The notes under the pieces are model-generated. The model did no database searches, was not told the origin of the DNA, and saw only the letters and a program-made list of their open reading frames with translations. Below are positions 1 to 63,930 of a stretch of 64,000 nucleotides of DNA, one piece after another. The DNA comes from Typhlomys cinereus. Its lineage: Eukaryota > Chordata > Mammalia > Rodentia > Platacanthomyidae. The DNA lies in the NCBI GenBank assembly GCA_023101885.1, contig JALPQD010000818.1, positions 20,001 through 84,000 of the forward strand. Direction: 5' to 3'. The position numbers were made by a program, and so were the translations under genes. Within the stretch, counting starts at the first letter, position 1; the number at the start of each line of letters is the position of its first letter.

Positions 1-1135
1 AACCCTAAACCCTAACCCTAACACTAAACCCCTAAACCCTAACCGCTAACCCTAAACCCTAAACCCTAAACCCTATAACGCCTTAACCGAACCCTAACGC
101 CTAGACCCTAACCCTAAAAAACCCTAAACAGCTAAACCCTAACCCTAACCTAACCCTAACACTAAACCCTAACCATAACCATAAACCTAACCCTAACCCT
201 AAACCACTAACCCTAACCCTAAACCCTAACCCGAACCCTAACCCATAACCCCGAACCCCTAACCCTAACCTAACCCTAACCCTAAACCCTACACTACCCT
301 AACCCTCTAACCCTAACCCTCTACCCTAACCTAACCCTAACCCTAAACACTAACCCTAAACCCTGAACCATAACCTAACCCTACCCTAACCCTAACCTAA
401 CGCTAAACCTAAAAACCCTAAACCCTAACCCCAACCCCAACCCAACCACCCCAACCCTAACCATCTAACCCCTAAAACCCGAAACCCTAACCCTAACACC
501 TAACCCTAACCTAACCCTAAAACCGCAACCCTAAAAACCCTAAACCACCCTAACCCTAAAACCTAACCTAACCCTAACCCTAACCCTAACCCTGAAACCC
601 TAACCTAACCGCGAACCCCTAAACACCGACAACCCTAACCCTTAACCCTAACCAACCCTAACACGAACCCTAACCTAACCTAAACCTAACCCTAACCACT
701 TAAAACCCAACCCACCTAAACCCAACCCGAACCCTCACCCTAACTCTAACACTACCCGTTTAACCATAACCCTAACCCTAACCCTAACAACCGCCCTCAC
801 CCAAACCCTAACACCCTCACCCAACCTACACCCTCACACCTCAAAACCCACGCCTAAACCCTACAAACCCTAACAACCACTCACCCTCACACCATAACCC
901 CCTCTCACCTGAAACCTAACTCAAACCCAAACCTAAACCCAAACCCTAAACCTAAACCCTGACCTGACCCTCCACCCTCACCCTCCCCAACACCCTCTCC
1001 TCACCACTGAACCCTCACCTCACCATACCCTGACCTCACCCTCACCCTCAACCTAAACACCCACCCCTCAACAACAAACCTACAACACCGGCCTCACCCA
1101 ACACCTCACACCAGCCCTCAAACACCCTACCCTCA
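1..1135. repeat. Telomere repeat, C-rich strand, grading into variant repeats
   Basis: The window starts in CCCTAA units, so base 1 is at or near a chromosome end and the chromosome reads inward. From 1 to about 780 the units are mostly CCCTAA mixed with CCCTAAA and single-base variants. From about 780 to 1135 they shift to CCCTCA-type units (TGAGGG on the other strand), with spacers such as ACACC and CAAACC. The irregular spacing could be real proximal-telomere degeneration or consensus error in long-read telomere sequence. No gene is present. Confidence 0.93.
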
Positions 1136-1139
1136 CCCT

Positions 1140-1620
1140 CACCTGGATTCCCTTTGGATCCTCACCCTGATCCTGATCCCTCACCCTCATCCCTGATCCC
1201 TCACCCTGATCCTGATCCCTCACCCTGATCCCTCACCCTGATCCTGATATCCCTGATCCTGATCCTGATCCTGATCCTGATCCCTGATCCTGATCCCTGA
1301 TCCTGATCCCTGATCCTGATCCTGATCCCTGATCCTGATCCCTGATCCTGATCCTGATCCCTGATCCTGATCCTGATCCCTCACCCTGATCCCTGATCCT
1401 GATCACTGATCCTGATCCTGATCCCTGATCCTGATCCTGATCCCTCACCCTGATCCCTGATCCTGATCCTGATCCCTCACCCTGATCCTGATTCCTGATC
1501 CTGATCCTGATCCCTCACCCTGATCCCTGATCCTGATCCCTGATCCTGATCCCTGACTCTCACCCTAAACCCTCACCCTGATCCTGATCCATGACTCTCA
1601 CCCCTGACTCCATCCCCTAA
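1140..1620. repeat. CCTGAT / CCCTGAT telomere-variant block
   Basis: This is a nearly uninterrupted tandem run of CCTGAT and CCCTGAT, with occasional CCCTCA units marking its start and internal breaks. It reads ATCAGG/ATCAGGG on the other strand, one or two steps from TTAGGG. Long open frames across it (Asp-Gln or Gly-Ser repeats) are artefacts of the 6-7 bp period. The block ends near 1620 in decayed CCCTAA-like units. Confidence 0.9.
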
Positions 1621-2937
1621 CCCTAATCCAAACTCCTAACTCCAATTCTAATCCTATTAGTAAACCTCTAGCTCTGAACTGTACTCCTAACTATAATGTC
1701 TGCCAACCCCCACCATGCCCCACAAAGTGTCTTATTTCACTTACCTTAGGCTTTTCTTTTTCTGAGGCTCCATAATCTGTCGGTACGTACTGACAATTGT
1801 TCAAGGTCCAGTTTCTCCTCTCCCCTGTGAGTACATTTTGCTCAGAGCAAGAATAAGTTCTAGGCCTGAAGCTCACCTGTTATGTCATCTCTCTATGGAA
1901 ACCTTCAATGCCCAAAGCTTGAATTTATGCAGCTGTCTTCTTCAAGCAGACAGGAAGTTCAGCTTCTGAAGAGGAAGTCTCTTCTCCGCAGAAGGGACAG
2001 TTGGACATGTAATCTCTCTCTGCTCCCGACCCCAGGGGTTTCTGAGGGGAGCACGAAAGTGTGCACATCTCCAGGACTTCAGCCCGCTGCTGAAGGAGGG
2101 CTTGCAGGATGCCACACGCTGTGCTGTGAGTAGACCACAGCTGTGAGAAAACCTTCTTTAAGTGGTGGCTCATGGATCTTCATTGCAGTAACTCTTGGTC
2201 AGCTTATCTTCACATTTCAAGTCTCCAGCTGATTTGTACATGTGAATTGGTGCACGATGCCATGTGGGATGTGCAGTTTTTTCAGAGTCTAACTGTGAAG
2301 CAGGCAAGGAGAAAGATGTAGGGACCTCAGGGCCCAGCTCTCTTGATGTTAGCTGGGTGATGGGAACCTGGGAGCCCCAGTATTTTACACAGTTGTTTAG
2401 CTGCCGACGGACAGGAACTCCTGCTCTCTATTAGAAATGGGATTCAGCTGTGGAATGAGTCACGCTAGAAAGGAGACTCTGGTACCGGAACCTGCGGGGA
2501 CAGGCCTGACGTGTCTGAGTGACTGTTGGGCCAAGTGGGGATCCAGCAGCCTGAGCCAATCCTGGAAGTGCAGCAGTCACTGGGCTGCACATCACCCTAA
2601 TCCTAATGCTAACACATTCCTGCTGGAGTTGACTGGCTCTGGTCTCGGTTGGGAGCGCAGGCCTCTGCTCTACTAGAAGATACCATGCATGGTCTCAGGT
2701 CTCTGCGAGCCATTCAGCCATCATTCAGCTCAGTCCATTCCTAACCCTAAGGGTCACAGCTGACGCTGCCCAACACTGGGCGCGGCAACGTGCAGGTCGC
2801 CACAGCTCCTGACAGGGCCCCTGATAGCCCAGATAGGGGCACAGGTCTCTACTGACTGCACAACAGGCCTGTCACCCCCACGACCCCTCTGCTGAAACCC
2901 TGCAGACTGGGAACACTCCTCCACAGGTGGCGCGTGC
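1621..2937. other. Low-copy subtelomeric DNA, no gene recognised
   Basis: Complex sequence begins here. Short open frames on both strands (up to about 83 codons) show no domain. Isolated telomere-like words recur, for example CCCTAATCCTAATGCTAA near 2594 and CTAACCCTAAGGG near 2742, as expected of old subtelomere. Confidence 0.5.
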
Positions 2938-3060
2938 TGCCTTCTGGGATTGGTAGTTTTTCCCTATTAAGTAAACTTGGGAGAGAAAGTAAACTCGGGT
3001 GACAAAGGTTCTGTGAGCTACAAGGCCCAGCATCCTCTGAGCTGTGTGGGCGGGGCCAAC
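2938..3060. promoter_or_regulatory. Possible promoter: two ZNF143/Staf-like motifs and a GC box
   Basis: On the minus strand 2938-2960 reads AACTACCAATCCCAGAAGGC, close to the ZNF143/Staf consensus ACTACAATTCCCAGAATGC. On the plus strand 3017-3035 reads GCTACAAGGCCCAGCATCC, a second version of the motif. A GC box (GGGCGGGGCC) follows at about 3048, in locally CpG-rich sequence to about 3200, with a GAGGGTAAG donor-like string near 3067. This looks like a small subtelomeric promoter, but I recognise no downstream coding exon. The motif matches are direct; promoter function is inference. Confidence 0.4.
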
Positions 3061-4635
3061 GCCGGGGAGGGTAAGCCCCGGCGCTCAGGGGGCCACAGGC
3101 TACAGGGACAACCTGAGTCCTCTGCGCAGGCCTGACCCCTGGCCACCGAGGCCGGGTATAGAGTCAGTGCGCTGGAAATGGGAGCCCCTGGTGGGCAGGC
3201 CCGTTCCCTGGGATGGGATGGGTAGAGCTGGTTCAGTGAAAGTACATTCCTCTCTCGGCTTGCAATATTGGTATAAATTCTGCTGGCGCTGGTGGAGCGT
3301 CACCATGATTCATAAACAAAATTAACCCTTGTTCACCTGTGCTGCTTTGCTCAGGTATTTAGACCAGCAACTTGAAGGTCCAAACCGCAGAAGACAAAAA
3401 CCTTACATCTGATTATCACACACATACAAAAAAAAAAAAAAAAAAAAAAAACACTAAAAAACTCTTTTAAAAATGAAACTCGAAATCCTTAACTTACACC
3501 TTTTAACCCTCTTCTCAGCCCCTGCCCTCCACTCTCCCAGCACTAATTCTGACGCCAACCCTCCAGCCACATCCACCCTAACCCTACCCATGCCCATGGG
3601 CAGCAGACACTTGCCCGAGCTCTCGCTGAAGCTGACGCTAAGGGTCCACAATGCAGCCGACAAGGGCACAGATCTCAGGTTTCAGCTGCTGCTGAGTGGA
3701 GGCTGGGACGAAGTTCCTGTCAGGGCCGCGAGCTGTGCACCTCCTGGTGACACCCTCATGGGGACACTTCTCCACGTTCAAAACCCTGAGGGTGCGGCTG
3801 AGGCCAGAGTCAAGCCACAATGAGCGCTGACAGGTGTGCAGACTACCTCAGCTAGAGGCCTTGCAGGCAGTGTCAGGGGCTCCCGCCCCTGCTCCGACTA
3901 GAGGAACAAGCTAACCCTAAATCCTCAGGATCGAGAACCTTCTCAAGAATCCTATCGCCCCGCCCCCTCTCACAGCCACAAGTGCTCTAGCCCCACCAGC
4001 TCTCCCCCCCCTCCACTCGCAGCCACCAGAGTTCTAGCCCTGCCCTGCCCCAGCCCCAAACACAGCCACAGGTACTCTAGCCTCATCCCACTCCACATAC
4101 AGCCACAGGTGCTCTAGCCCCGCCCTGTGAGCTCTGAGTTGCCCAGGAGGCACACGTTGCCTCCTGGGATTGGTAGTTTTTCTGTAATCTAATCTCAGGA
4201 GAGCAGAGAAGAAAAGGCTCCAGGGACTACTGGCCGAGGCTCTGGCATGGTGTGGGAGACATGAACCTAGAAGCAACGGATTGGGGCTGCAACAGACTCA
4301 CAAGGAATTCCCAGTGTCCCCTGTGTCAGCAGGGAGGGTAGAGCTAGGACTTTTCCTCTCTGAGAAAGACGGCTACAGCTTCTCTGGAGCCAAGTGGGTG
4401 GACTTTGAGCTGCAGTTGCTATGCGGCCATCCCTGAGGGTCTCAGGCTGCAGCTGGAAGTATGGTGCCCCCCTCCACTTTCCACTCCTGGAGATTTCTGG
4501 CAAGTCAGGCCTTCCTGTCAGGATTTTTGAGGTTTGAGGCACTACATCTTCAGTCAACTTTATTCATCTCACAAACATTTATGATGCCTTTAAAAGCATT
4601 GTGTTGTCATTTTGCCAGACTGACAAACTAGAGTC
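3061..4635. other. Subtelomeric DNA, partly GC-rich, no gene recognised
   Basis: This holds a pure A tract at about 3429-3451 and short telomere-like words (CCACCCTAACCCTACCC near 3576, GCTAACCCTAAATCC near 3910). Between about 3950 and 4125 are degenerate tandem copies of a roughly 60-70 bp unit carrying 'agccac...ctctagcc'. Open frames of 60-116 codons lack recognisable domains. Confidence 0.45.
4158..4180 (-). promoter_or_regulatory. Third ZNF143/Staf-like motif
   Basis: The minus strand reads AACTACCAATCCCAGGAGGC, almost the same string as at 2938-2960 some 1.2 kb away, and the flanking bases are also similar. The two sites may be duplicated promoter fragments. Confidence 0.35.
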
Positions 4636-4639
4636 AAGT

Positions 4640-5395
4640 TCAAGCTGTTCTGACTACTCACAATAGCAAGTCATGGAATCAACCTAAAAGCCCCACAGTT
4701 CAGAATGGATAATGAAAATGTGGTAGCGATACACAATGGAACACTACATGGCTATCAAAGTAATTAATGAAATTTGCTAGTAAATGGATGGAGTTGGAAG
4801 AAGGAGTACTAAAGAAAGTATTCCTTATCGGACCAGCCAACTCTTTCTCCATACAAAGGCTCAGAGAACCTTGCGGGAAAGGGGGCAGTAAGATTGTAAG
4901 AGCCTAAAAAGAGGGGAAGGGCCACCGCTAGAGAAGACATTCCACTCAAGGCAGGGCTGCTGCATCCAGCAGATCAATGAAATGGGACTGGTCCTTATCC
5001 GACCTGCACAATGATGGACACTTCAACATATCCCCATAAACTAGCAAGGATTTGAGGAGAAATAATTTCAAGCAGTAGGAACCCTTCGGATAGGGCTAGA
5101 CAGATTCAGTATCCCTATCAGTGGGTCTGCCCAAGGCAGGGCCACTCAGTCTGCCACAGACACCTGAATCCCCACCAGAGGAGATGATCCAGAGGGAACC
5201 CTGGGAATCACAGAAGAAAGTGCATAGGAGGGTGAAATGAGTGGGATACAGTGACGAAGAGAGGGTAGGGAAAGAGGGAATGAGGAAGAAAGGGTGAGAG
5301 GAAAATGAAATGAGAAGGGAAAGAGAGGAGCTGGGATTATTACTCACTGTGCTTCTAAAGCCAGGGAAAACAAATAAATAAAATAAAATGTATGT
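4640..5395 (+). mobile_element. L1 3' end (ORF2 tail and 3' UTR)
   Basis: The text from 'caagtcatggaatcaacc' through 'aatgaaatttgct' is the C-terminal end of L1 ORF2. It is followed by a 3' UTR with a purine-rich tract at about 5230-5335 and an AATAAA-like A-rich tail at about 5368-5390. The same 3' UTR type recurs at 54.9-55.4 kb and 45.0-45.6 kb. It is 5' truncated and non-coding. Confidence 0.8.
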
Positions 5396-5839
5396 AAAAA
5401 AGCATGATAGCAGATATCATTTTTTAAATGCTAACAGATATATCGTGCACAACAAAAACAGAGGTGGGGAGAAATATAAAAGCAAAACTACTCTAAGAAG
5501 ATCTTAATAAAAGCCATAAATTATAAAATCAATTCCAAATACCAGACCCCTGTTGGTCAGTCAGAGAAGCCCCACCCCCAAAGCCTTAAAAGAATATAGG
5601 CATTTTTCTTGCTCTTGGTTACCCTTCAGAACCTCTTAGTAACACTCCATTTTTGAAGACATCACATATGAGGTCCACAGGACATGAAGAAAACAAGCAG
5701 CTTTGGATCGTGAAACTTTCTCCTTGCAATCCAGAATGTAGGACATGGACCATGGGTGCCCAGCAGCACTCACTTGCTTGCCTGCCACCTCTGCTACTGT
5801 GGGCTGCCTCATGTCCTCTGATTGCAACATGACCCCTTA

Positions 5840-7470
5840 CACTCTGTTGTTTGGAAGTCCCCTGGAGACCACCAAGCTGCAGTGCCCACGAAGATGCTGT
5901 TCACACAATTCATGCTGGAGCCACATATGGACCCCTGTTCTCCCTTTTCCACTGATCCTGAGGCTGATGTGTGGCTCAGGGGATTATGGGAGGTCACCCT
6001 GGAACTCAGCCCCCAGGATGTTGAGGTGAAAGCCCAGTGGATGCAGAAAAAGGGGCAGGTGTAGGTGGGAGCTCTAGGCAGAAGATCCCTGCTGGAGATA
6101 GCAGACGACTTGAGGCGGAGAAATGCAAAGGGGTTTATATGGGTGCCAAAGCATCAACCCTGGAGATCCAGGAGGTGCAGAAAAAAGTAGGCAGGGAGTG
6201 GATGTTTTCCCAACCAAAGAGGAGTGCATTTGCTTTGAGGCCTCCTGTAGCTAGATGTGATGTGCTTCCCAGGTGCCCAGGCACTAGGGGATGGAGGTCC
6301 AGATATGAAGTCATGCCTTGGAGGATGGGTCCAGCATGTAGGATGGAGCCAAATTTGTACATAAGCTGGGGCCTTTCAGGCATCTGTGGCACCTTGACCC
6401 AATGGAAACACTTACTCTGTTGTCTGGGAGCACTTGGGGTCCACTGTATGGGACTCCTGGAGATGGAAGCCAACAACCACAGAGGGATAGGTTGTATCCA
6501 GGTCATCCCGATGCAGGAAGGTGGTCTGACAGCCCACTCAAAAAGAAGCACTGCAAGCACGGACCTAAGTCCAGGAGCAACTGACTGGAGAATTCAGAAT
6601 GCCATCTGGTTTCAGAACTAAAGAAACTGACATGGCCTGTGCAGATGCAGGGCACAGGGCTCTGAGGGGGCTTTCTGCATACAGACCCCCACAGTTCAGG
6701 GAAGATCCTGGCCCCTGGGTTCCATGAGGCAGTATGCCAGAAGGAAGATGACCCTGCTCCTTCATCTCCAGCTCACCTCCACATACTGGCCCCAGCTTTC
6801 CACACCCACCCACACCCCAGGTTTGCTATCAGAAGAACTGGCCAGAAAGACCAGCCTGTTGAAGGACAGGATTCATATATGGTTACAAAACCAAAGAGCC
6901 AACACCCAGAGCACAGCATGGCACTGGGCAAGCACAGCATGGCACTGGGAGACGTCCCCAGCTCTTGGCCCCACAGCCAGCTTGACTTGCCAGATGCCTC
7001 TGCTCCTGTGGGTGGCCCCAGATCCTCAGAGCCCTCCCTGCCACACTCCTTCTTGCCCTCTGCTGAAAGGGAATCCCCTGGAACCTCCTAGAGCCAGGCT
7101 GCAGTGGCCACAAGGATTCTTTCCACACAATTCTTGCTGGTGCCCAACTCTCGCCTGCCCTCTCCTCCTCTACAAGATCCTGCGGGGCCCCTCTCCAGCC
7201 CAGCAGCACAGTTCTTCCTTGCACAGATACCCTTGTGTTTCCCTCTCCACACCAGAAAGACCCGCAGATGGAGCACATCCATCCTAGGAAGAGTGAATAC
7301 CCACCTTTGGCTCAACTTCCATGCACAATCCCTAAGCAAAACTGTCCATCTCTGGCTGGTCCACTTTTGGCCACCAGAGACCCTCCAGGGGCAGCATCAG
7401 GCAAGACTAGCCACTCAAATGGCTGTACAACACACCTGGAATTAGGCCAGCCTAATCTCGCCCCATCCTG
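5840..7470 (+). pseudogene. DUX-like double-homeobox relic, internally duplicated
   Basis: In the frame open from 6724 to 7287, residues encoded at about 6739-6906 resemble a homeodomain. They start with a basic RRK, run through EELARKTSLLKDRIHIWLQN and end in QRAN, with the helix-3 W-x-Q-N core at 6880-6891. This is most like the second homeodomain of DUX4/DUXC-family proteins (EELAR...SRIQIWFQNRRA). About 280 bp upstream in the same frame, 6592-6621 encodes RIQNAIWFQN followed by a TAA and then Arg. That looks like helix 3 of a first homeodomain with two extra residues and a stop. The two-homeodomain order fits the DUX family. The block around 5846-5950 resembles 7075-7180 (shared 'cacacaattc.tgctgg'), so a repeat unit was probably duplicated. 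Downstream frames are Pro/Ser-rich without a recognisable DUX activation tail. No intact gene is present. Another PRD-class homeobox is an alternative. Confidence 0.5.
6739..6906 (+). other. Homeodomain-like segment (second homeobox of the relic)
   Basis: About 56 codons remain open, with RRK at 6739-6747, helix 2 around EELARKT, and helix 3 IHIWLQNQRAN ending at 6903. Phe of the W-F-x-N core is Leu, and the Arg at the residue after Asn is Gln, so DNA binding would probably be impaired even if it were translated. An 18-bp direct duplication (GCACAGCATGGCACTGGG, twice) follows at about 6913-6950. Confidence 0.55.
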
Positions 7471-7937
7471 AAGCTCAGGGAAATTTGTGGAAGAGGAGGC
7501 AGTAAGATTGTAAGAGTACAAGGATGGGAGGAGCAATGATATGCAAGACGCTCCACACAAGTTAGGGCCGAAGCAATCATTTTTGGACTTTACATGCCCT
7601 GTGCAATGTCCACACACTATTGACCTCACAAAGTCTAGCATTTGCTAAAGGCACTAGGATCCTGGGAGGCAAGGGATTGACAGCCACAGTATGTTCCTAT
7701 GCTTAACAGGAACACAGGAAAGGGTTCTGGGAAATGCCACTGGGTCCTTGCACCTCATTGGAGAGGAGGACCCAGAGGAGAGTTTGGCATGCAGATTAAA
7801 GGATGCTCCGGGGATGGGAGGGGGAGGCACTGGGGAATGGGGAGGGAGAGGGAGGGGAGGGGGCACAGGGGGATGGGGGTTGGAAGGAGGGGGGTACCAG
7901 TGTACCTGTTAAGTTTGTATGAGCGGAAATAAAAAAA
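7468..7937 (+). mobile_element. L1 3' UTR fragment with G-rich polypurine tract
   Basis: It shares long stretches with 26,030-26,465 and 35,960-36,236 ('ccactgggtccttgcacctca', 'gcatgcagattaaaggatgctcc'). A G-rich polypurine tract lies at 7809-7895 and the tail AATAAAAAAATGG is at 7929-7940. G-rich tracts are typical of L1 3' UTRs. ORFs over the tract are low-complexity. Confidence 0.75.
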
Positions 7938-9624
7938 TGGCTGCACAACAGGAAGGAACCCCCCAGTGGGTTCTGCCAAGACAGCTGCTCTCCAGGGAGC
8001 ACCTGCTACCACCCATTCTGCCCTCTGCCCTGGAGGAAGGACAGCCACCACTCCCAGCACAAGACTTCCCAGTCTTGGACCTCCTTGAACATGTGCTATT
8101 GGGGCCTGGATCTGTCCAGTAGCCACACACCTGATGCAACGCAGGTGCACGGGGTGAGCAGCTACCATTGCCCAAGAGGCCCCTCACGTGGACATTCTGT
8201 GAAGAAAGAGCAGGGCTGCATTTGGTGGCAGAGTGGAAGCTTGCCTCCTTCACTGTCACCAGGAGTGGCATCATCTGGACATGGACCTTGATTAGCACAT
8301 GCAAGCTGAGGGCCACGCAGAGGCTTGCACAGGCCTGAAGAACCAAAGCAAGGAGAGTGGTAACAAGCCCACAAAGAAATGGCAAATGCCGCCTCCACAC
8401 TCATTTCTCTAGGCCCAGTTTCCTTGCTGCCACTCAGGTGAAGTAAGCAGAGATACAGCTCCCATCTGATCCTGGAGCTGGGGTGCCTTCAGCACCTCAA
8501 GGCTGCGGGGCTTCCAAAGGGTGGGGGAGGAGAGAAAAGGGCAGGAGTCTTGAAGGCCTTGAGGATGGCCACCTTTCACAGAACTCGGTTTTGCCTCTCT
8601 CTCACCATGGGCTATCTGATACAGGGTGACACTGCCTCTCCACCTGCAAAGAACTCCTGGGGGGAGAGGTTCCAGGAGCGTGCCTGGACATAGTCCGGCA
8701 CAGGACATTTCATGGAGCACAGACACAACCAGTTGAAACTCATGGCCCCAAGGGGAAGGAGGAGCTGGGCAGCACTCCAGACTCACAATGATGTGACCCA
8801 CTCTTCCAGTGCCAAACTGCACTCTGTTCAAAGCAGAGGAAGAGATGGTTGTGCCTGAATTGTCAAACCAATACCAACTCTTATCTACTTCTGTGCCCCC
8901 CATCAAACTCTTTCTTCTTAGGACTGTGCATACAAATTTCCCTTTGTCACACCACTTCTGGCCCTCAGCCATCTCAGCTGCTCATCCATACACCGTATTC
9001 CTTAACTCAGCACTTCATCCATGCATGATGACTGTACCAGCGTCAGGCTTATTTCCATTATCTGCCACCATCTCTAGAACACTGGGGCTGATGATCAGGA
9101 TTCACACACTGAATCTCCCACCCCTTAGCTTCAAGAAAACATGCATTTTTGCCAAAAGACCTTTCCACAGTGTCTGGAAACTGCCTTCATTTGTGTCAAT
9201 GCTTTCAAAGGATTCTCTCTCTCTCTCCTTGGGTCTGTATTCTGACTTGACTCCTGTCTACCTCTTCTTCCTCTGACTCTCATCTCCCTTGTCTCTGTGA
9301 GCCTCCTCCTCCCTCTTTATAAATCTGCTCCCCTTCCCTCACTTACATTCTGGGTGGTCTTTATGGCTTTGCTTCCATGTTTTGCTACAAGCCTTGCCAC
9401 CCTCATAGAGGGTCTCTGTGGGGATTTTCCTCTCCCACTAGTTTCATTCACTGCTTGCTGTTACAGAGGTGAGATGTAAAGCCAATGACCACAGCCACCG
9501 CTATACAGCTTGAGGAAATTTGAAGTTTCTGGGTGCTCCTCTTGGGAGACCATGACCTTGGTCTGAAGCTTGTCAGACTTCTTGTCAATCTTCTGGAAAT
9601 GTATACACATTTGTCATGCTTGCT
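7938..9624. other. Unassigned subtelomeric sequence
   Basis: Minus-strand open frames reach 163-187 codons (7909-8400, 8409-8972), and a plus-strand frame covers 8809-9276. None shows a domain, splice-linked continuation or repeat identity that I can recognise. Pyrimidine-rich sequence lies at about 9200-9320. Confidence 0.4.
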
Positions 9625-9910
9625 TTGGACTGCAAGAAGTAGGATGCCAGACAGTTACCAGCCTCCTTTTCCCAAGACTGTTTTCTCAGTCACCAGAAGC
9701 TGGGAGATGGGACTCCAGTGCTTCATTACTCCCCTCAGCTTTCAAGCCTGTTACTTTTCTAGAGAGGTTCCCCAGACTCCTACATCCTTCCTTGGGGGAG
9801 GGTTTGGAAAGGGAAGAAATGGTGGTCCCAAGCTGTGATTGTCTCTTTCTTGGGTGCCCTTTACTTAGCTGGGACCACTCCTTTGAAGGGAAGTGGCTGT
9901 GTAGGGAGCC
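9625..9910 (+). repeat. Inverted repeat, left arm (286 bp)
   Basis: This arm is the reverse complement of 10,976-11,261 with only three mismatches by eye over 286 bp. Both arms start at TTGGACTGCAAG and end at GTAGGG(A/G)(A/G)CC in arm orientation. The arms are separated by 1,065 bp. Outside them the sequences diverge at once. The arm itself belongs to no element that I recognise. Confidence 0.93.
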
Positions 9911-10975
9911 TTAAAGGCCCATTTCCTGATTGTGCCTGTTCTGTCTTTGAACATCGAGATGCACGGTGTGGACCTTTTGAAAAGGAAGCCAATACGGTAT
10001 GAGGGTCTGTATGTAAAGGCAATCCTGAGGCAGGAAGGTAATCCTGAGGTAGCCCATTAATAAGGAGCCATTGGAAGCAGATTTCAAGCAGAAACCTTAT
10101 TCGGGGATCAGAGTCTGTGAGCACCTGGCAGAGCATTTGGATTGTCGGCATGACACATCCACGTGTAGTTTCAGAACCAAAGACTAGCTAGGGTAGTGAA
10201 ACCTTTGCTAGACACAGCTATAGTTAACACTTGTCTCTTTGTACTTCTCCAAGGCATTGCCCTAAAACACTAAAACTTGTTATGAAAGCCTCTGGTCTGA
10301 AAATAGTCTTACTTGTCGGGCCATTGCACAGATACCTGAGTTACTTCCAGAAGCAGTCATGTGCACAGACCTTGCAGCTTTGTTCCTAATTGTGTGTCCC
10401 TTTCCATATCCCTATAATGTTCTGCTAATATAAAGGAGGGTAGACTCTAGACCTGGGTCCAAATCTTCCCTCCAAAGTCAAATAGGGCATTCCAGCCCTA
10501 TTTGTAATCCCAGCACTGAGGAGAATGAGGCAGGAGGAAACATGGCATGGCTGAGAGAAACCTGGACTGCTGATTTTGTTCAAGGCTGACCTGGCAAACT
10601 TAGAAAACACTGTCTTTAAAAAGACCTCGAAAAAGCCCAGGATGGGCCAGCTTTAATTTTATTTAAGAGACTGAGGAAAGACAGAAAGTCAGAGAGAAAG
10701 AAAGAAACAAAGGCATGATCATGCATGCATGTTGTGGGGAGAACTTTTATCACAACTTGCAGACAATACTTCTATGAGTTAGGATTCTAGCAATCAATTT
10801 CACTTCAACATGTTTGTGAGCAAGCTATTTCACCAGACACCAAGGAACAGTTCAATGGTAGAAAGTGTATCTCCAGGGTCCAGGGTCCTGGCTTCTATTC
10901 CCAATCACAATATGCCTGTGGAACCTCAGAGTAGCTGCTCATAATTCTCGTGACAGATTTTTTTTGATGTGGTAT
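9911..10975. other. Spacer between the inverted arms, with SINE fragments
   Basis: The spacer contains a B1-like SINE at about 10,480-10,625, an AG-rich stretch near 10,680-10,710, and a probable ID-like fragment at about 10,838-10,915 ('aatggtagaaagtgtatctcc...'). The rest is unassigned. Confidence 0.5.
10480..10625 (+). mobile_element. B1-like (7SL-derived) SINE
   Basis: The strings 'tgtaatcccagcactgagga', 'gaggcaggagga' and 'caaggctgacctggcaaact' are in B1 order, ending in a short A-rich tail. It is diverged. Confidence 0.7.
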
Positions 10976-11261: not shown

Positions 11262-12212
11262 TTTAGCTCACTGTATAAAAAGGGATGCCAGGTCAAGTAG
11301 GCAGCACTTAGGGTGGTGAGAGGCAAGACACAACAGAGTTTCACAAGTCTGAGTCTGCACCAGGGTCTATGTGAACGAGCATCTCTTGCTAAATGTTCAT
11401 AGTGTCTCAGGCTATATGTGGGATGAACAGATTGGGAGGACAGGCTGTGAGGGAGGATAGGACATCCACCTGGAAGAGTCTGTGGTTGAAAGGTGGGAGG
11501 TCATAGTGGTGAGGTCAGTTTCTAAGGAAGGACATGACCCCTGAAAAAGGATGTGAACTAAGAGACAAAGTGTAAAGGTCTAATGGTCTGAGGTAGAGGG
11601 TGAGTACCCAAGTGAGCAGGTAAGAGTGTGAGTGAGAGTGCTTATGAACTGCTATCTTACCCACCCTTCCAATACATGACACACTATAAAGTAGGTTGCA
11701 ACTTAGAAAGCATTGCTAGACTTCATGGAGCTTTTAAAAAGTTACTCTGTGTCCATACATTTGGTAAAATGCTCCTCACTCTCCTCACTCATTAGGACTC
11801 AGCTTCTCCATTTGGGACAAAGAGAATTTTCCCACCTGTTTGCCCATGATGCTGTTATGATGATTTTCCCTCTTTCTCTGACTTTCAGCTACCGCTTCTG
11901 TTCCAGTGCTCTCACCTTAACACTAAACTATAGTTTCTTTGGCCATCATACACTCAGCTTTAAATACACTCAATTGTTAAAGTCTCTTTTGTGTGATAGC
12001 TTCTCTTTATTCATGGATGTCCATGTGATGTGCACACTTGTTTGGAGTCGCTCTTCATTTGTTTTACCTACTGACCTTTAAGCAATTTCATAGCAGCCAT
12101 GTGAAGATGTAAAGATCTTTGAAAGTCATTCCCTACTGCTGGGATTACCCTGAAAGAGAACACCCTATTAATCTGGAGGAACTGACGCTAATCCTTCACA
12201 GAGATAAGGTCC
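11262..12212. other. Unassigned sequence
   Basis: A TATAAAA-like string lies at 11,274, just beyond the right arm. 'ataaagtaggttgcaacttagaaagcattg' around 11,688 resembles 28,998-29,025, so both may be fragments of one unnamed dispersed repeat. No gene is recognised. Confidence 0.35.
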
Positions 12213-14498: not shown

Positions 14499-16673
14499 TG
14501 TACTAGTTACTCTTTTCTGTGTTGCTATGAGAGAAGACCCAAAGTCAAGCAACTTAAGGGAGAAAGGGAGATTTATTCAGCTTATGGTTCCAGAAAGGAG
14601 ATGCAGTCTTTCGAGGCAGAAGTTGGAGGCGGCCTAAGTCACACTCATCTAGGAGGCTGAGAGCTGCAGGACTTCCTCTGCTAGAAGTCTCCTGGAAGTA
14701 GGGTGGGACTAATCCACCTCAAGGCCCACCCCCTCAGACTGCCTTCCTCCAGCAAGTCTCACCCTCCTAATGCTGCCATGTCCTTCCCAAACACATGAGT
14801 CTGGGGGGGATATTCTACTCTGGGGGTTATTCTACACAGGCTCATTGACATCTCATTATGCAAACCGTATTTAGTCCAGCTGTGAAAGTCCCAACACAGA
14901 CTACATCAGTAATCCCAACACAGTCCAAACGTCCACATTCTAAAGCCTCCTATAAAATCAAAACACAAGTTCTGTACTTCAAACATATGGTGGCACAGAA
15001 TAAAAGTTACAATTCCAAAAGGGGGAAATGGGGGTGTATCCAGTAAAGTGGTACGTAATATGACCGAAAACTGTAGGAAAAACCTAAATCTTGCAATTCT
15101 ATGTCCAACAGATGAACTTATTGTTGAAATCATCTCAGTAATAAAGGTCTTTGATTCCATCCCTTCAGCAAAATAACCCATATCACAAAATTGTATTGGG
15201 CTAGCTCCTTCCAGGAGATTCAGCTCTTCTTGGCAGATGTCTGTCCCACATTGGCTCTGGTATCTCTAACATCTTTACTTTTTATGGAAAACCAAGCTTT
15301 AACTCCACAGAGAAAAATGCCCTTCTTTGGCTTCTAAACTGCAGGCTGCCTGCCACATGCTGCCTGGCTTCCACCAATCTCTGAAGCCTTGGAGAAGGGT
15401 TCCAAGACATCCTCTGTCTTGCATCTTTGATGCCTTTGAACCACCACCACATGGTTGATATTGCCAAGTTCTGTTACAGCCTTGCATTGGAGACTGACCA
15501 CCCTTGACTCACAGCTGGTTCAGCTTTTCCATGTTGATGCTGGGGAGGGGGAGAAAGAGGCCTTTCCTTTGGACTTCTGTCCTTTATTTCTTCCCTTTCT
15601 GAAGAATTTGCATTCTTAAGGGTGGGAGCACCCTTTGAGGATCTTGCCCTCAGGGTAGGGCCTCTCTTATAATCCAAATAAAGAGCAGTTTTTTATTTAC
15701 TAATGGAGCTAATATGTTCAACAATAGTCACCATTTTGCTTTCGATCTCTTCCTGGTTCAGCTCTTCAAATTTTCTACTGCATTTTTCTTATCAGACTTC
15801 ACAGCTTTGCTTCTTTCTGCTGGATTGCTTGCTCTTTTTTGTAACTCTGAACAAGACTTTCTTGCCTTGCAAAGTTCTGCCAAACACTTGCATTTAACTT
15901 CAGGCAAGCTCTCAGGAGGAGGACAAAACTTCACTAAACTCTGCCAACACATGGCTCCATTTGCCATTCATTTAGTTCCAAACGCAGTCTCTGTTCCTCT
16001 TTGGACCATCACAAGCTGGACTTCTACTCCCTGTGTCTCTAACAGTTTTACTCTCTTCCAAGCTCTCACAAGAATGACTTTTTTGGCCCAGTCGACAAGA
16101 TGCAAAGACTTTCCCAACACAAAGTTCCAAAATTCCCACAACAAACTTCCAAAGGCACACTAGCCACATTGCAACAATTGCCACACTGCTTGATACCAAC
16201 TTCTCTCAACTTCATAAAAAAACAACTTCACAAATTTCTCTCAACTTCACAGCAATTCATCTTGTGGTACCAGATGATCTTAATCACAGCAATACCCCAC
16301 TACTTGGTACCAATATCTATATTAGTTATTCATTTCTATGTTTCTGTGAGAGAAAACCTGAAGTCAAGTAACTTAAGGGAGAAATGGAGATTTATTCAGT
16401 TTATGGTTCCAGAGAGGAGATACAGTCTTTCCTGGTGGAAGCAACTTAACTCGTGACAGAAGTTAAGGGCAGGCTAAGTCACATTCATCTATGAGGCTGA
16501 GAGCTAACAACTGCTCCTGCTAAATCAGACCTCTCCCAGAAGCAGGGTGGGATCAATCCACCTCAAGGCTCACCCCCTGTGACTGTCTTTCTCCATAAAG
16601 GCTCCACCTCCTAAAGGTGCCATGACTTTCCTAAACACATGAGTCTGTGGGGGACACATTTCAAACCATGACA
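14499..16673 (-). mobile_element. Full-length non-autonomous MaLR element
   Basis: Two ORR1-like LTRs lie at 14,499-14,850 (3' LTR) and 16,318-16,673 (5' LTR), both read on the minus strand, starting TGTCA and ending near CTAATA or CTAGTACA. Beside the 5' LTR the minus strand reads TGGTACCAAGTAGTGGGG at about 16,294-16,311, a near match to a leucine-tRNA primer-binding site, as expected of ERVL/MaLR. The 1.47-kb internal part has no long gag or pol frame, which is normal for MaLR. It is the same internal family as 39.2-40.5 plus 42.6-42.8 kb. Flanks TACAC and GCCAC are poor target-duplication matches. Confidence 0.85.
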
Positions 16674-16814
16674 GCCACCTTGGCACAAGGCAGCTAGAAT
16701 GTGGGAATCATCAGAGGCAGACAGGATGCCTGAAAGGACTGTATGGTTATGACTCTATTCCTGCTGACCAGAGCCCCTCCTGTTTCACTAGCCACAGGGA
16801 GCCTGTGTCAGGGA

Positions 16815-17605
16815 TGCCAAGGCCGATTTCTTGGTGTTTAATTTTCTTAACTCTTTGTGTATGCTGTATACCAATTCCCTACCAGATATGTGACTCATAC
16901 AGACCTCCTTCTATTCCATAACTTTCCATTTTGCATTATTCACAGTATCATTGCAGAACAGAAACTTTACAGTTCTGTGAGATCCTATTTGTAGAATTCT
17001 GGCCTTATTTCCTATGCAGATAGAGTTCTAGTAAAAAAAAAAAATCTTTTCCTAAACCAATGACTTCCAGTAGACTGCTTATTTTTCTTCTGTTTTCACT
17101 GTTTCTAGCATAACAATGATGTCTTTGGTCGATTTTGACCTAATTTCTATGTAGGGTGAGGAATACAGCTCCAGTTTTATTCTCCTACATGTAGAGATCC
17201 AATTTTTCTAGCACCACTTTTTTAAGTTGCTATTCTTTTTCCAGTGTGTGTTTTAGCATCTTTATCAAGTAACAGATGATGGTAGATGCATTGGCATATA
17301 TCTGGGACCTCAACTCTAATCCACTGTTCTGTGTCTGGTTTTGTGCCAATACATGCTCTTTTAATTTATATGGCTGTATGGTACACTTTGAAGGTGGGTA
17401 GTGTTATAACTTCAGAGCCTTCTTATTAATTGATGACTTTCATATTTGTGCTTCCAAATGAATTTTAAGGTTTTTTTCAATATCTGTGAAGAATTCCATT
17501 GGAATCGTGATTGGAGTTACATTGTTTCTGTATATTGATTGCCTTGCTAGCATGATCATTTCACCTTGTTTATTGTTCTGATTCATGAGCTTGGGAGACC
17601 TTTAT
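16815..17605 (-). mobile_element. L1 ORF2 fragment
   Basis: Plus-strand text such as 'tctttatcaagtaacagatg', 'ccactgttctgtgtctggtt' and 'gaattccattggaatcgtga' is antisense L1 ORF2. Many stops show an old copy. Both ends are truncated. Confidence 0.75.
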
Positions 17606-19617
17606 GTCATCTGATGTCTTCTTGAACTTATGAAGCTTCCAGTTCTATATCTTGAAGTACTTTCTCCTGACTTGGGCCCTTGAAATGGTGCAATTGTAGT
17701 TCTATGCCACAATTACTGGGCTTGAAGTAACATTTTTTGATTCAAGATACATGGTCTCTCTTCAGTTGCACTTTAATAGGGTACTCAAGGAGGACATCCA
17801 GAAAGAGAAGGCAATGGTGTGGACTGTTACAGTATAGGGCTTTTTGGCTGTGCATCATATAATGCTATCTTGAGCCTTATATCAGCAAGAACATATGAAC
17901 CAAGATGATGAACCATTGCCCAAGTTACACAATGACACAATGACTCCTGGGGAGAGAGAGTAAGAGACCCTGAGACTTCAGGAAAACAGGTTTAGAGTGG
18001 TATGAAAATCCCTCTGTCTGGACATTCAAGGATAATTACAGAAGCTCAGAGACTGAGATAGACCAGCAAAGACACAAACCCAGAAGCACATGCAGCCCCT
18101 CAAATGAATGGAACTCAGAATTGGCACTGGCTGTGCTGGCTCAGGAAACCACTGTGGTGACTGGAATTCTCTAGATTTTCAGGAGCAGAGAGGTCAACTG
18201 TCATGGCCCTGAGTGCAATATTCCCTTCACTTCATCTGGCCGTCTCATGGTGCCATGGAGAGGGGGGGACCATGTGTACAGCCCCCCCCAAAGAATTAAA
18301 GCTCAGCAAGTACTCCCACACACAGTCTCTAGAGCCCAATGCTCCCATGGTATTCAATCTCCCTTACCCAGGACACGTGCATGACTGCTGTGAAGCTTTG
18401 GAAGAGCCTAGACACCATCACAGCTTGGCCAGGCTAGAAGAGCTTTAATGGAAGGGTTAGTGGGCTCCCTTCAGTTTCTTGGCCAAGAGGGCAACAGTGC
18501 AAGTCACTTGAACACTGGAGAAAGAGCACAGGATACAACTCATAGGGATTGAGCCTCTTGGGATTTAGAAAGGAGCCTAATGTTAGTGAGATTATCACGG
18601 AACCAGGCTGTGACATACTAGAACTGAAATAGGAGAATCTCAAATAAGTGAAGAAAATCTATTTTCTTCAATGATATACTTGCTGATATGTCATCCAGGC
18701 CACACCAAGGACCCGCATACATGCTAATAGAGGTAACTTTGATGAAATTCAGGGGATCACACATACCAAATGTATTAAAGTAGGCAGCAGACAGGTGGAG
18801 ATCTCCAGTGGCAAAGGAAGGGAGATGCGATTGGGTAGTAAAGCATGAAAAGTGACATAAACTCACTGTGTTCATTCAAAAGAACTGGTAAATGAATTAA
18901 GAAAATAACAAAATAGTAGTAAAAAAAGGTGTGTAGTTGGAGAAGCATTAGATAGAAACACAAAGTTCGAGGGCAGTGTACAACCAGGAGTCGGGGAGTG
19001 TGTGTGAAGTTGCCAATAAGGGGATTTCAATGTCCATTCTATTTACAGAAATCTGATTATACACTCCAAAGCAGACCTGCAGAGAGTGCTGGGGATTGAC
19101 TCTAAGCCACATGCAGAGGTAGGCTAGCTGCCTGTCATCCAAAATCAACACAGAATCTTGCCCACAGGTTGAGTGGACAATTCACAGTAATTACACAGTG
19201 AAATATGGGAAGACTCGGCCACCACTGGCCACTCCTCGGTTACACATGGCTTTCCTAATCTGCTCAGATGGTGCCAGACTCACTATTTGGGATTTCTGGG
19301 ACAACCAGCACATGTGCTATGGGTCTGTCTCCTTGCAGCTGCACGTCACAGCATGACAGAGGTCTCAAGATGGAAAAATCACATTGCTCACCTCAGATTG
19401 ATAAGTAGTAGTTTACTCTAGAGATACATATGACTGATCATGACCAAGGAATACAGATTTAGGTTATACCTACTCTCATGTTTTCCAGTCTTCAGAGTTT
19501 TTGCAATCATAAAACAAAATGAAAGAGAAATCAAGGAATTCCTGATCCTGAGTGAAAATACATGGCAGGAACCTATAGGTAAGTGAAGACACAATCACAA
19601 TTTAGTCCTACTTGAGA
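17606..19617. other. Unassigned sequence
   Basis: Open frames of 60-85 codons have no domain support. Nothing beyond scattered AT-rich and simple tracts is recognisable. Confidence 0.3.
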
Positions 19618-20080
19618 ACTCATTTCTGTATCTTCAGCAATAGGGAGGCTGAGGCAGAAGGACCAGGAGCTCCAGACTGTAGCAGTCTCGGGGGCCCATG
19701 GAGACCCTTGGGGGCGGGGATAAGCTGGCACAGAGTCAACGACACAGACTCCGGAAGTCAGGCAAGTGGCAAAGCAGGCAAGCAGGCTTGCAGGCTCGTT
19801 TATTGTAAGTATCGGGCTGCTTATATACCCCACCCAACATCTCATAAGTCCCAGTGAGCTTTTGCTGAGTTGTCCTGTCTGGGTTGGTCCTCTCAGCCAG
19901 GTGGTTTGACATCAGCAGCAGGCCTGCCAGCAGGTTCTAATTTGGGGAAGTTGCATTTGCACGTGTGACCCATACAGACAATACAGGCCTGCCTGGTGCA
20001 TTCCTCCTACACCAGACGAATATGGGCTACAAAGTAGGTGCCAGTTTGAGTACATGAGAACCTGGAAAAAAAATTAAACA
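19618..20080 (+). mobile_element. B1-like SINE split by an LTR insertion
   Basis: The left part (to 19,677) carries 'gggaggctgaggcagaagga' and 'ccaggagctccagac'. The right part resumes at 20,012 with 'ccagacgaatatgggctaca' and ends in an A-rich tail near 20,075. The break is exactly at the duplicated CCAGAC. Confidence 0.7.
19678..20011 (-). mobile_element. Class II (ERVK-type) solo LTR with 6-bp target duplication
   Basis: The minus strand begins TGTAGGAGGAATGCACC and ends ACTGCTACA. It contains a TATATAAGC TATA box (plus 19,818-19,828 region) and a CAATAAACG polyadenylation signal. CCAGAC flanks it at 19,672-19,677 and 20,012-20,017. A 6-bp duplication is typical of ERVK. Confidence 0.88.
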
Positions 20081-32439: not shown

Positions 32440-35949
<3,510 letters not shown>

Positions 35950-59120: not shown

Positions 59121-61060
59121 TGTTGCAGTCCGCCGGCATGGTTGCTGATAAATGACCATCAAACAGCTTAAGGGAACAAGGAGTTTACTTTCTTACGATA
59201 GTCCGGTTACAGTTCATAGTCCAGCTTGACGGGAGAGCACACACCAACACCAGGGCCGAGGGAACTGGCCACCATAATGGCTGAGAGATGGACGATCCTT
59301 ACTAGCCAGACCAGCATGTCTGGCCAAGTATACAGAAGGATGCCAACTCTCTCAACCAGCTCTCTGATTTATCCAGGGCCTAATCCCACCCACCATGGGC
59401 TGGGTCTTCCCCAGCAGCCAGACAATCTCCTTCAGGTTTGCTCTGGGCTTAACTCAACCATCAACTCTCTACACCTGTGCCCAGAGCTCAAACCCTCAAG
59501 AGTCAAGTTGACACCTGTGTTTAACTATGACATTCCACCCCTTGTCAACTTGACACAAAAACAGTAGCACTTTTATACTGTAACCTTTCCTTGTCCCCAC
59601 AGATGTTAAAATATAAATACATTCCCTGGACAAATTTAAAATGTTCTCTCATTAAAACTTCAGTTCCAATATTTTAAAACATTAAAACAGAAGGATCTTA
59701 AAACAATAAGAAAACATTTAAAAGATCAAAGTCCAGCAAATCACCGCATCCTGTACTTCAATGTCCATCTTCTGCTGCTCATCACGTAGTCAAGGCGGCT
59801 CAAAGATTCGAGGTATTCCCAGTCCCTGTTTGCAGCTTAATGTTGTAAAAGCAGAGTTCCTCTGAACCAGGCTGAATCTCCACTCGCAGTAGTCCTCAGC
59901 AGCAGTCCCACAGTTCTGGCATCTCAAATACAACTCTGGGTTCTCCTCTGCAGCTTTAAGCTTCACCATCTCTTGCAGGACTCTACGCCTGCCTCTTGGT
60001 GCCAAGCTTTTGCTGCTCTCCATGAACCCTTCAGTAGTACACGAAAACCAGCATCACCTGAGGGACGCTGCCTGATTCCGAAGCGAGGTTGAAATACAGC
60101 TTAGTCCACTGGAGCCACCGCTGCACCAACTTCAATGTGCTGACGCTGGAAAAGCCTCTCTTCTAGGCAACCAAACTTGCAAAGGGCAAGAAACAGCTTG
60201 AACTAAGGCTTTCGCCCCCTGAAGGAATCTGAGCTTCCAAACCACGAACTTGCCATACGGTGGTTTCCAGGTCCTCCACCGTCTCAATGCAAGTCACTAG
60301 GTTTTCCTTCACTGATACTCATTTGTCCAACAGCAGCAGATATTCTGCTGCCTGCCCTTTGTACATCCAAACCTTCAAGGTTGCCAACACAGCTCTCCTC
60401 AATCAAGCAAACCAGTCCATCGTCCTTATATTCAGTTTTACCAAAATCCTTGTTTCCCTCATCACAAATTGAGCCCAAACAATGTATCTCAGCAATTGGC
60501 CCACTAAACACTGAAGAACGGTATTTGTAAATCCACAAAGTGAAAATTCTCAAGCATTTTCAACTTTGTCCAGCGAAACCGTTCAAAAGACACAAATTCC
60601 ACATAGTCAGATTTATCAGCAACACCCCACTTCCTGGGTACCAAATTCTGTTGGGGTCTGCCTGCATAGTTGCTGATAAATGACCATCAAACAGCTTAAG
60701 GGAACAAGGAGTTTACTTTCTTACGATAGTCCGGTTACAGTTCATAGTCCAGCTTGACGGGAGAGCACACACCAACACCAGGGCCGAGGGAACTGGCCAC
60801 CATAATGGCTGAGAGATGGACGATCCTTACTAGCCAGACCAGCATGTCTGGCCAAGTATACAGAAGGATGCCAACTCTCTCAACCAGCTCTCTGATTTAT
60901 CCAGGGCCTAATCCCACCCACCATGGGCTGGGTCTTCCCCAGCAGCCAGACAATCTCCTTCAGGTTTGCTCTGGGCTTAACTCAACCATCAACTCTCTAC
61001 ACCTGTGCCCAGAGCTCAAACCCTCAAGAGTCAAGTTGACACCTGTGTTTAACTATGACA
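59121..61060 (-). mobile_element. Complete, young-looking MaLR-type element
   Basis: Two 412-bp LTRs lie at 59,121-59,532 (3') and 60,649-61,060 (5'). CATCT flanks at 59,116-59,120 and 61,061-61,065, a perfect 5-bp duplication. Next to the 5' LTR the minus strand reads TTTGGTACCCAGGAAGTGGGG-like sequence (about 60,624-60,645), a leucine-tRNA-type primer site. Next to the 3' LTR it reads CAAGGGGTGGAA, a polypurine tract. The LTRs differ at about five bases, all in the last 20 bp of U5 as read. The internal 1.1 kb has no retroviral gene, so mobility would have needed ERVL enzymes in trans. Confidence 0.93.
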
Positions 61061-63239: not shown

Positions 63240-63930
63240 AAACGATAAAAAACAACTGGAAAGGTGGGTCGTGTCCTGCCGAAGGGCGCCGGGACACATC
63301 CCCCGCCCTTTCCAAGCCCTGCCGCGCTCCGGCTGGGGCTTACACCACCAGCCCGGGACCCCCAAGCGGCCCGAGCGCAGTGGAGCCCCCTGAGTCCCAC
63401 GGCTGCGCCAACAGCGCCCTGCGCCCCTCGGGGAGCCCGCCGGCACCCCCAACTTCTGTGCGGCGCTCCCGCCGCCCGCCCGGCCACGGCAGCCTCACGG
63501 CCGCGCTCGGCGGCGCTCACGGCTCCGCGGCCCCACGCGCCGCACCCCGGCTCCAGGCTCCGCGCAAGGCCGGGGCAGGACGCCCGGGGCCCGACGCCCG
63601 GGGCCCGCCGCCAACCTGGACCCGTGCAGCCGGAGAATATGGTGCGCACAACGGCCGCAAGGCGGAACCCGGGGCGCCGGGACACACAGCTTCCCGCCGG
63701 CCGGGACCCGCCGCACTCACCGCTTCCTTCCGGCGGCGTGGACAACCCGCGTCGGCCCGCGCTTGTCTCCAGCAGCAGAGGATCCGGAACCACAGCAAAG
63801 AGACAGACACGGACGGCCCCAAGATGGCGGCAGAGGGTGGATTGGACGCAAAAGCCCATGGGAGGCCCTGGAAGCCCGCCCCTTCTCGCTCTCTGTCATC
63901 TGATGGGACGTTCTCATTGGACAACGACAT
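63240..63930 (-). promoter_or_regulatory. CpG-island promoter of the KRAB zinc-finger gene
   Basis: Very GC- and CpG-rich from about 63,260 to 63,830. AAGATGGCGGC (63,821-63,831) is a YY1 site in the sense usual just inside KRAB zinc-finger first exons, since it reads GCCGCCATCTT on the coding strand. CCAAT boxes occur on the minus strand near 63,837-63,848 and 63,912-63,921. Long frames across the island (up to 232 codons) are GC artefacts. Confidence 0.7.
63721..63850 (-). other. Non-coding exon 1 (5' UTR), start uncertain
   Basis: The donor GAAGCG/GTGAGTGCGG places the exon end at 63,721. The upstream edge is set by the YY1 and CCAAT sites and is approximate. The donor consensus is strong and faces the start exon 1.7 kb away on the same strand. 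Confidence 0.6.

Follow-up and report, generated by a model that had tools for sequence, protein, structure and literature searches.

Mouse Dux and human DUX4 are transcription factors of the early embryo, and the human DUX4 at 4q35 reads toward the telomere. According to excerpts of a previous paper, the Dux arrays of mouse and rat are intronless, the homeoboxes of DUXA, DUXB, DUXC and Duxbl are split by introns, DUXA, DUXB and Duxbl are without the DUX4-type C-terminal domain, and DUXC was not found in rodents or primates (PMC3004920). Many dispersed D4Z4-like copies in apes are described in the same excerpts (PMC3004920).

Here we describe a decayed DUX locus of the rodent Typhlomys cinereus, located in a window of 64,000 nucleotides (C818:20001-84000) from a genome of 2.68 Gb in 1235 contigs. 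As far as the excerpts describe the related systems, the locus shared with mouse and rat Dux an intronless double-homeobox frame, a conserved C-terminal domain and an origin in tandem arrays, with primate DUX4/D4Z4 a probably subtelomeric array and dispersed decayed copies, and with DUXC the two homeodomains, the conserved C-terminal domain and tandem copies (PMC3004920). The unit length of about 3.3 kb was also similar to that of primate D4Z4 in the sources as excerpted. Unlike rodent Dux, the relic was dead and adjoined telomere repeats; unlike DUXC with its intron-split homeoboxes, it had no intron-like gap; and unlike DUX4 at human 4q35, it read away from the telomere repeats. Among the literature titles and abstract openings searched, none was about a rodent DUX relic linked with telomere repeats.

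Intact arrays and identity of the relic

A homeodomain search of the genome, in which 150 of 653 candidates were scored, revealed series of matches spaced about 3.3-3.5 kb apart, for example on C527. The intact units were 3.3-3.5 kb long, and each contained one frame of about 413 residues with two homeodomains. For one such frame (L012, from 7590, 413 residues), the DUX4 structures came first, with 6e8c at an E-value of 6.6e-37. A protein search with the live-array protein gave no close named relative: the top 20 of its 71 matches were mammalian DUX-like, unnamed or hypothetical proteins with identities of 34-55% over 14-98% of the query length, and the rest were other homeobox proteins. A comparison of the DUX protein with its own genome gave at least 104 listed matches (a lower bound, with 101 of 4269 candidates scored), at least 20 of which covered residues 1-413 at 98% or more, were free of stops and were distributed over eight contigs.

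Intact DUX macrosatellite units were observed on C527, C1, C28, C653, C1169, C1071, C1128, C214 and other contigs. There was also an older DUX array (L018, C178:4205901-4219673), where the two units fetched were about 7 kb apart and both had an early stop. More distant DUX-relic pieces of 67-78% identity were dispersed over C45, C252, C144, C194, C337, C450, C475 and others.

The first-pass annotation of the window had suggested the DUX/DUXC family from a homeodomain-like frame preceded, in the same frame, by an IWFQN core and a stop. Both elements were real: EELARKTSLLKDRIHIWLQN was read at 6832-6891 (+) within an open stretch at 6631-7287 (+), and the IWFQN core of the same frame was followed by an in-frame stop. 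However, the second homeodomain alone scored 18.1 bits against the Pfam Homeodomain profile (E 0.0023), below the cut-off of 22.9, and no homeodomain was found in the frame 6025-6618 by the same kind of search. Since the profile match stayed below the cut-off, the DUX case needed other evidence, and it was the unit of the animal's own genome that carried the homology.

In blastn comparisons with an intact DUX locus of this genome, the region 6423-7129 matched with both homeodomains in one alignment (E 2.5e-50, 61%), as did 7938-8125 (E 5.6e-31, 74%) and 10019-10178 (E 6e-19, 70%). The homeodomain region scored 193 bits against the intact unit, compared with at most 29.7 bits in 30 dinucleotide-block shuffles. 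With three DUX loci as queries, the window parts that were used matched at 35-208 bits, the best shuffle again being 29.7 bits. At 28.3 bits, the match at 7167-7204 fell inside the shuffle range and was discarded. When 72 proteins were compared with window positions 5501-10500, the DUX array protein of the same genome was at the top (76, 67 and 41 bits), and it alone matched, in the order of the unit, both homeodomains, the C-terminal part and, at the DNA level, the spacer. Some non-DUX homeobox proteins reached 34-48 bits on the second homeodomain. A better match to another homeobox class, which would have spoken against the first proposal, was not seen among these proteins. The protein match at 10002-10139 (E 3e-6) was like noise level and was retained solely on its DNA support (70%, E 4e-20); matches at 63279-63904, with E-values down to 4e-6, were regarded as Pro/Ala-rich noise.

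When the window copy was aligned with the intact unit, its homeoboxes contained no insertion longer than one base, hence there was no intron-like gap. The first part of the conserved C-terminal domain was matched, and its last part was damaged by shared deletions. Judged by these alignments, the relic is a member of the DUX family of the intronless Dux/DUX4 type. It is not DUXC, because no intron splits its homeoboxes; DUXA, DUXB and Duxbl were ruled out by the DUX4-type C-terminal match together with the absence of introns. Therefore, the DUX double homeobox of the early proposal was upheld by the unit-level homology and by the DUX4 structures that the array protein found first, and its DUXC part was abandoned.

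The relic was larger than first described, with unit pieces spanning 5777-9337 and an additional first-homeodomain piece further on (Table 1). The order was the same as in the arrays: a C-terminal fragment, a near-whole unit and the first homeodomain of the following unit. The two first homeodomains were about 3.5 kb apart with the inserted 505-bp repeat and about 3.0 kb without it, compared with 3.3-3.5 kb in the arrays. The partial 5.85/7.08 kb duplication that had been reported was also present (5872-5922 and 7094-7144, 82% alike); the short fragment before the main unit may belong to a preceding unit or may be a local duplication. As shown by the aligned pieces, at least two units once stood in tandem. 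The former tandem array that had been suspected was thus borne out by the spacer and the second first-homeodomain piece at about the array spacing, with weaker support from the fragment before the unit.

Table 1. Features of the relic and its surroundings, in window positions
Feature	Position	Strand	Details
Telomere-type repeats	1..1600	no strand	CCCTAA at 1-790; CCCTCA-rich at 790-1160; CCCTGA/CTGATC-rich variants at 1160-1600
Block flank, unique-looking	1600..5777	no strand	telomere repeats on one side, DUX relic on the other
C-terminal unit fragment preceding the main unit	5777..5821	+	35.4 bits; repeat reaches 5872-5922 (82% to 7094-7144)
Upstream part of DUX unit	5928..6275	+	82.5 bits, E 9.5e-18
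Broken DUX frame	6423..7145	+	start region, homeodomain 1 (IWFQN 6604-6618), linker, homeodomain 2 (best 6832-6906), start of C-terminal part
Short C-terminal-region piece	7377..7441	+	35.4 bits
505-bp high-copy interspersed repeat, inserted in relic	7433..7937	no strand	at least 27 places listed elsewhere, 92-94%
C-terminal domain part of DUX frame	7938..8140	+	136 bits; 48% protein identity, 97 columns
3' spacer of DUX unit	8203..9337	+	208 bits, E 1.4e-55, to the older array unit L018 (C178)
Homeodomain 1 of next unit	10019..10178	+	89.7 bits, E 4e-20

The 505-bp repeat was flanked by a near-identical 13-bp duplication (7420-7432 and 7938-7950), and an older copy of a high-copy repeat occupied about 4828-5390 of the flank. 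Elsewhere in the window, an 849-residue open stretch of C2H2 zinc fingers was located at 33145-35694 (-), with 28 stretches recognised by Pfam zf-C2H2 and no near-identical protein among the 120 matches listed. Another pair of stretches, each of about 412 bp and very much alike (59121-59532 and 60649-61060), belonged to a family with further members at 12212, 40556 and 42173 that may represent the end of a retroelement. A SINE of about 280 bp was repeated; two of its copies carried tRNA-Ala heads and a third carried a tRNA-Thr head. tRNA-Ala heads are linked to rodent ID elements, and the SINE thus pointed to a rodent genome. No Rfam match passed the gathering thresholds.

Copies of the block and their common inactivation

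Searches with the window segments 5600-8200, 5640-7425 and 1650-5600, with 40 candidates scored for each, showed that the block recurs in at least 13 further copies, distributed over nine other contigs: C638, C265, C310, C696 (two), C153 (three), C24 (two), C34, C1040 and C312. The C265 copy was observed as two inverted halves (L025 and L021, C265:650077-651217 and C265:665525-666984) with a 13-base overlap at window 7047-7059. On C1040 (49050-92600), DUX units were present at about 49-58 kb, and the telomere-repeat junction of the block followed about 30 kb further on, at about 87.8-89.1 kb.

Stops and frameshifts were compared in ten copies, namely those of the window, C638, C696 (two), C153 (three), C24 (two) and C34. 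The C265 copy was left out because of its inverted halves, as were the copies on C310, C1040 and C312, where the homeodomain stretch of this unit was missing. In one MAFFT alignment, on which the exact positions depend, all ten copies had the same stops (unit codons 23, 67, 102 and 110) and the same frameshifts (codons 56, 80, 116, 288 and 371), and further changes of these kinds were common to subsets of them. With these four stops and five frameshifts, the relic had no open DUX reading frame, that is, no working gene. Since all ten copies had the same inactivating changes, the unit broke once, before spreading. In a FastTree phylogeny of 22 sequences, the ten relics formed one branch (support 1.000) separate from the 12 array units. 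Of the copies compared for the 505-bp repeat, those of the window, C638 and C265 contained it, whereas the copies on C696 (two), C153 (three), C24 (two) and C34 were without it, and such a limited distribution indicated its late arrival.

Differences between relics were nearly even over the codon positions (17, 16 and 19% for the window and C34), and this would fit decay without selection after the copies split. Between the relic and the live unit, the corresponding values were 30, 29 and 42%, and the higher value at third positions may be due to the live side only.

The junction with telomere-type repeats

The first-pass annotation had placed the relic near a telomere. The telomere-type repeats of the window were in terminal orientation, with a gradient from canonical to variant repeats running toward the block. 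Since they filled positions 1 to about 1600, the homeodomains were about 5 kb from the edge of these repeats. Another 5 kb of telomere-type repeats (C818:10001-15000) was separated by a gap of N from the approximately 1.6 kb in the window; C818:1-10000 and 15001-20000 consisted of N, so that 15 kb of N stood within the initial 20 kb of the contig. Exact (CCCTAA)10 was found at 71 overlapping places on 22 contigs, most of them away from contig starts. The place on C818 was the closest to any contig start (13.8 kb), and a place on C696 was 16 kb from the contig end, within a tandem of blocks. Because of the longer graded repeats and of this closest place, C818 is likely a true chromosome end, although this is not proven and N gaps intervene.

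For eight of the 13 other copies, the match could be followed to the block's outer edge (about window 1600), and in all eight (C638, C310, C265, C696a, C24a, C1040, C24b and C153c) telomere repeats lay beyond it in one orientation. The remaining copies were not counted for the junction: C153a was cut by other DNA at about 1895, the last match of C696b was at about 3164, the C312 match ended at 3331, and for C153b and C34 no match up to the edge was seen. Thus, the closeness to a telomere was supported in the form of a recurrent junction with telomere repeats. On C696, the second block began directly at telomere-like repeats after the first block. On C638, C310 and C265, the telomere repeats extended for about 0.4 kb and were followed by common non-telomeric DNA that was 96-98% alike, and therefore these copies were considered interstitial and recent. 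A distant paralogue of the flank on C336 (75%) also had telomere-like repeats at its edge, with no DUX match among the matches listed.

Two scenarios had been offered for the subtelomeric location, an ancestral position shared with primates or repeated movement to chromosome ends. Spread of one dead block by duplication was shown here. For a position in common with human 4q35, no support was obtained: FRG1 is the neighbour of human D4Z4, and its matches in this genome were on C11 and C380, both unplaced contigs, with no DUX there among the matches listed. The direction of the relic, away from the telomere repeats, also argues against kinship with 4q35.

Origin of the block

At the level of sequence, homology of the relic to the unit of the living arrays (frame and spacer), the tandem order, the common death and the common junction were all shown. 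The locus is quite probably a fossil DUX macrosatellite within a subtelomeric duplicon, the remains of intronless double-homeobox genes once arranged in tandem in the manner of D4Z4. A DUX array would have been located beside telomere repeats, at a chromosome end when it died. After its decay, the dead block and its telomere border would have spread from one chromosome end to others as terminal segments were exchanged or added, and some copies would now be trapped beside interstitial telomere repeats inside contigs. The relic would make no DUX protein and would be a passenger, and the role of early-embryo transcription factor would belong to the intact arrays elsewhere.

It is rather improbable that a DUX unit strayed into a duplicon with interstitial telomere repeats and that a DUX array never existed at a chromosome end. 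In favour of such straying, other decayed DUX pieces with 67-78% identity were dispersed (C45, C252, C144, C450 and C475), the exact (CCCTAA)10 places were mostly away from contig starts, and the C336 paralogue combined a telomere-like edge with no DUX among the matches listed. The repeats on C638, C310 and C265 were short and interstitial, and with the non-telomeric DNA beyond them they also speak against a subtelomeric origin; the junction may be a part of the duplicon and need not have been at a chromosome end. Closeness to contig ends is of little weight for the relic, since duplications are where assemblies break. However, the presence of the junction in all eight edge-reaching copies, in one orientation, and the tandem of at least two units argue against a stray unit.

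We regard a continued activity of the relic or its block, be it as RNA, as promoter or as regulatory DNA, as very unlikely. Transcription of subtelomeres occurs in other systems and would be in favour of such activity, but the even relic differences over codon positions, the retroposon within the frame of the window copy and the loss of the homeodomain stretch in 3 of 14 copies point the other way. A pseudogene of another homeobox class is hardly credible: although the homeodomain profile alone was below its cut-off and the second homeodomain also attracted non-DUX proteins, the top rank of the DUX protein of this genome and its unique ordered match across the unit decide against it.

Starting from the fossil DUX array as the preferred reading, we tentatively suggest that DUX macrosatellites settled beside telomeres in this rodent line separately from primates, that exchange between chromosome ends helped to amplify and kill arrays, and that the dead block kept its telomere junction and was copied from end to end. 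Several live arrays ran to or near contig ends; since assemblies break at duplications, such closeness proves little, and exact (CCCTAA)5 was not found on C1, C28 and C34 among the matches listed. Why DUXC and DUX4 in particular were repeatedly duplicated and kept copies is stated as an open question in the excerpts of PMC3004920. If our suggestion is true, life at chromosome ends would recur as a condition of DUX arrays, rather than being an accident limited to human 4q/10q. The many live DUX arrays and the graded dead series tied to telomere repeats provide a non-primate test case for the part played by chromosome ends.
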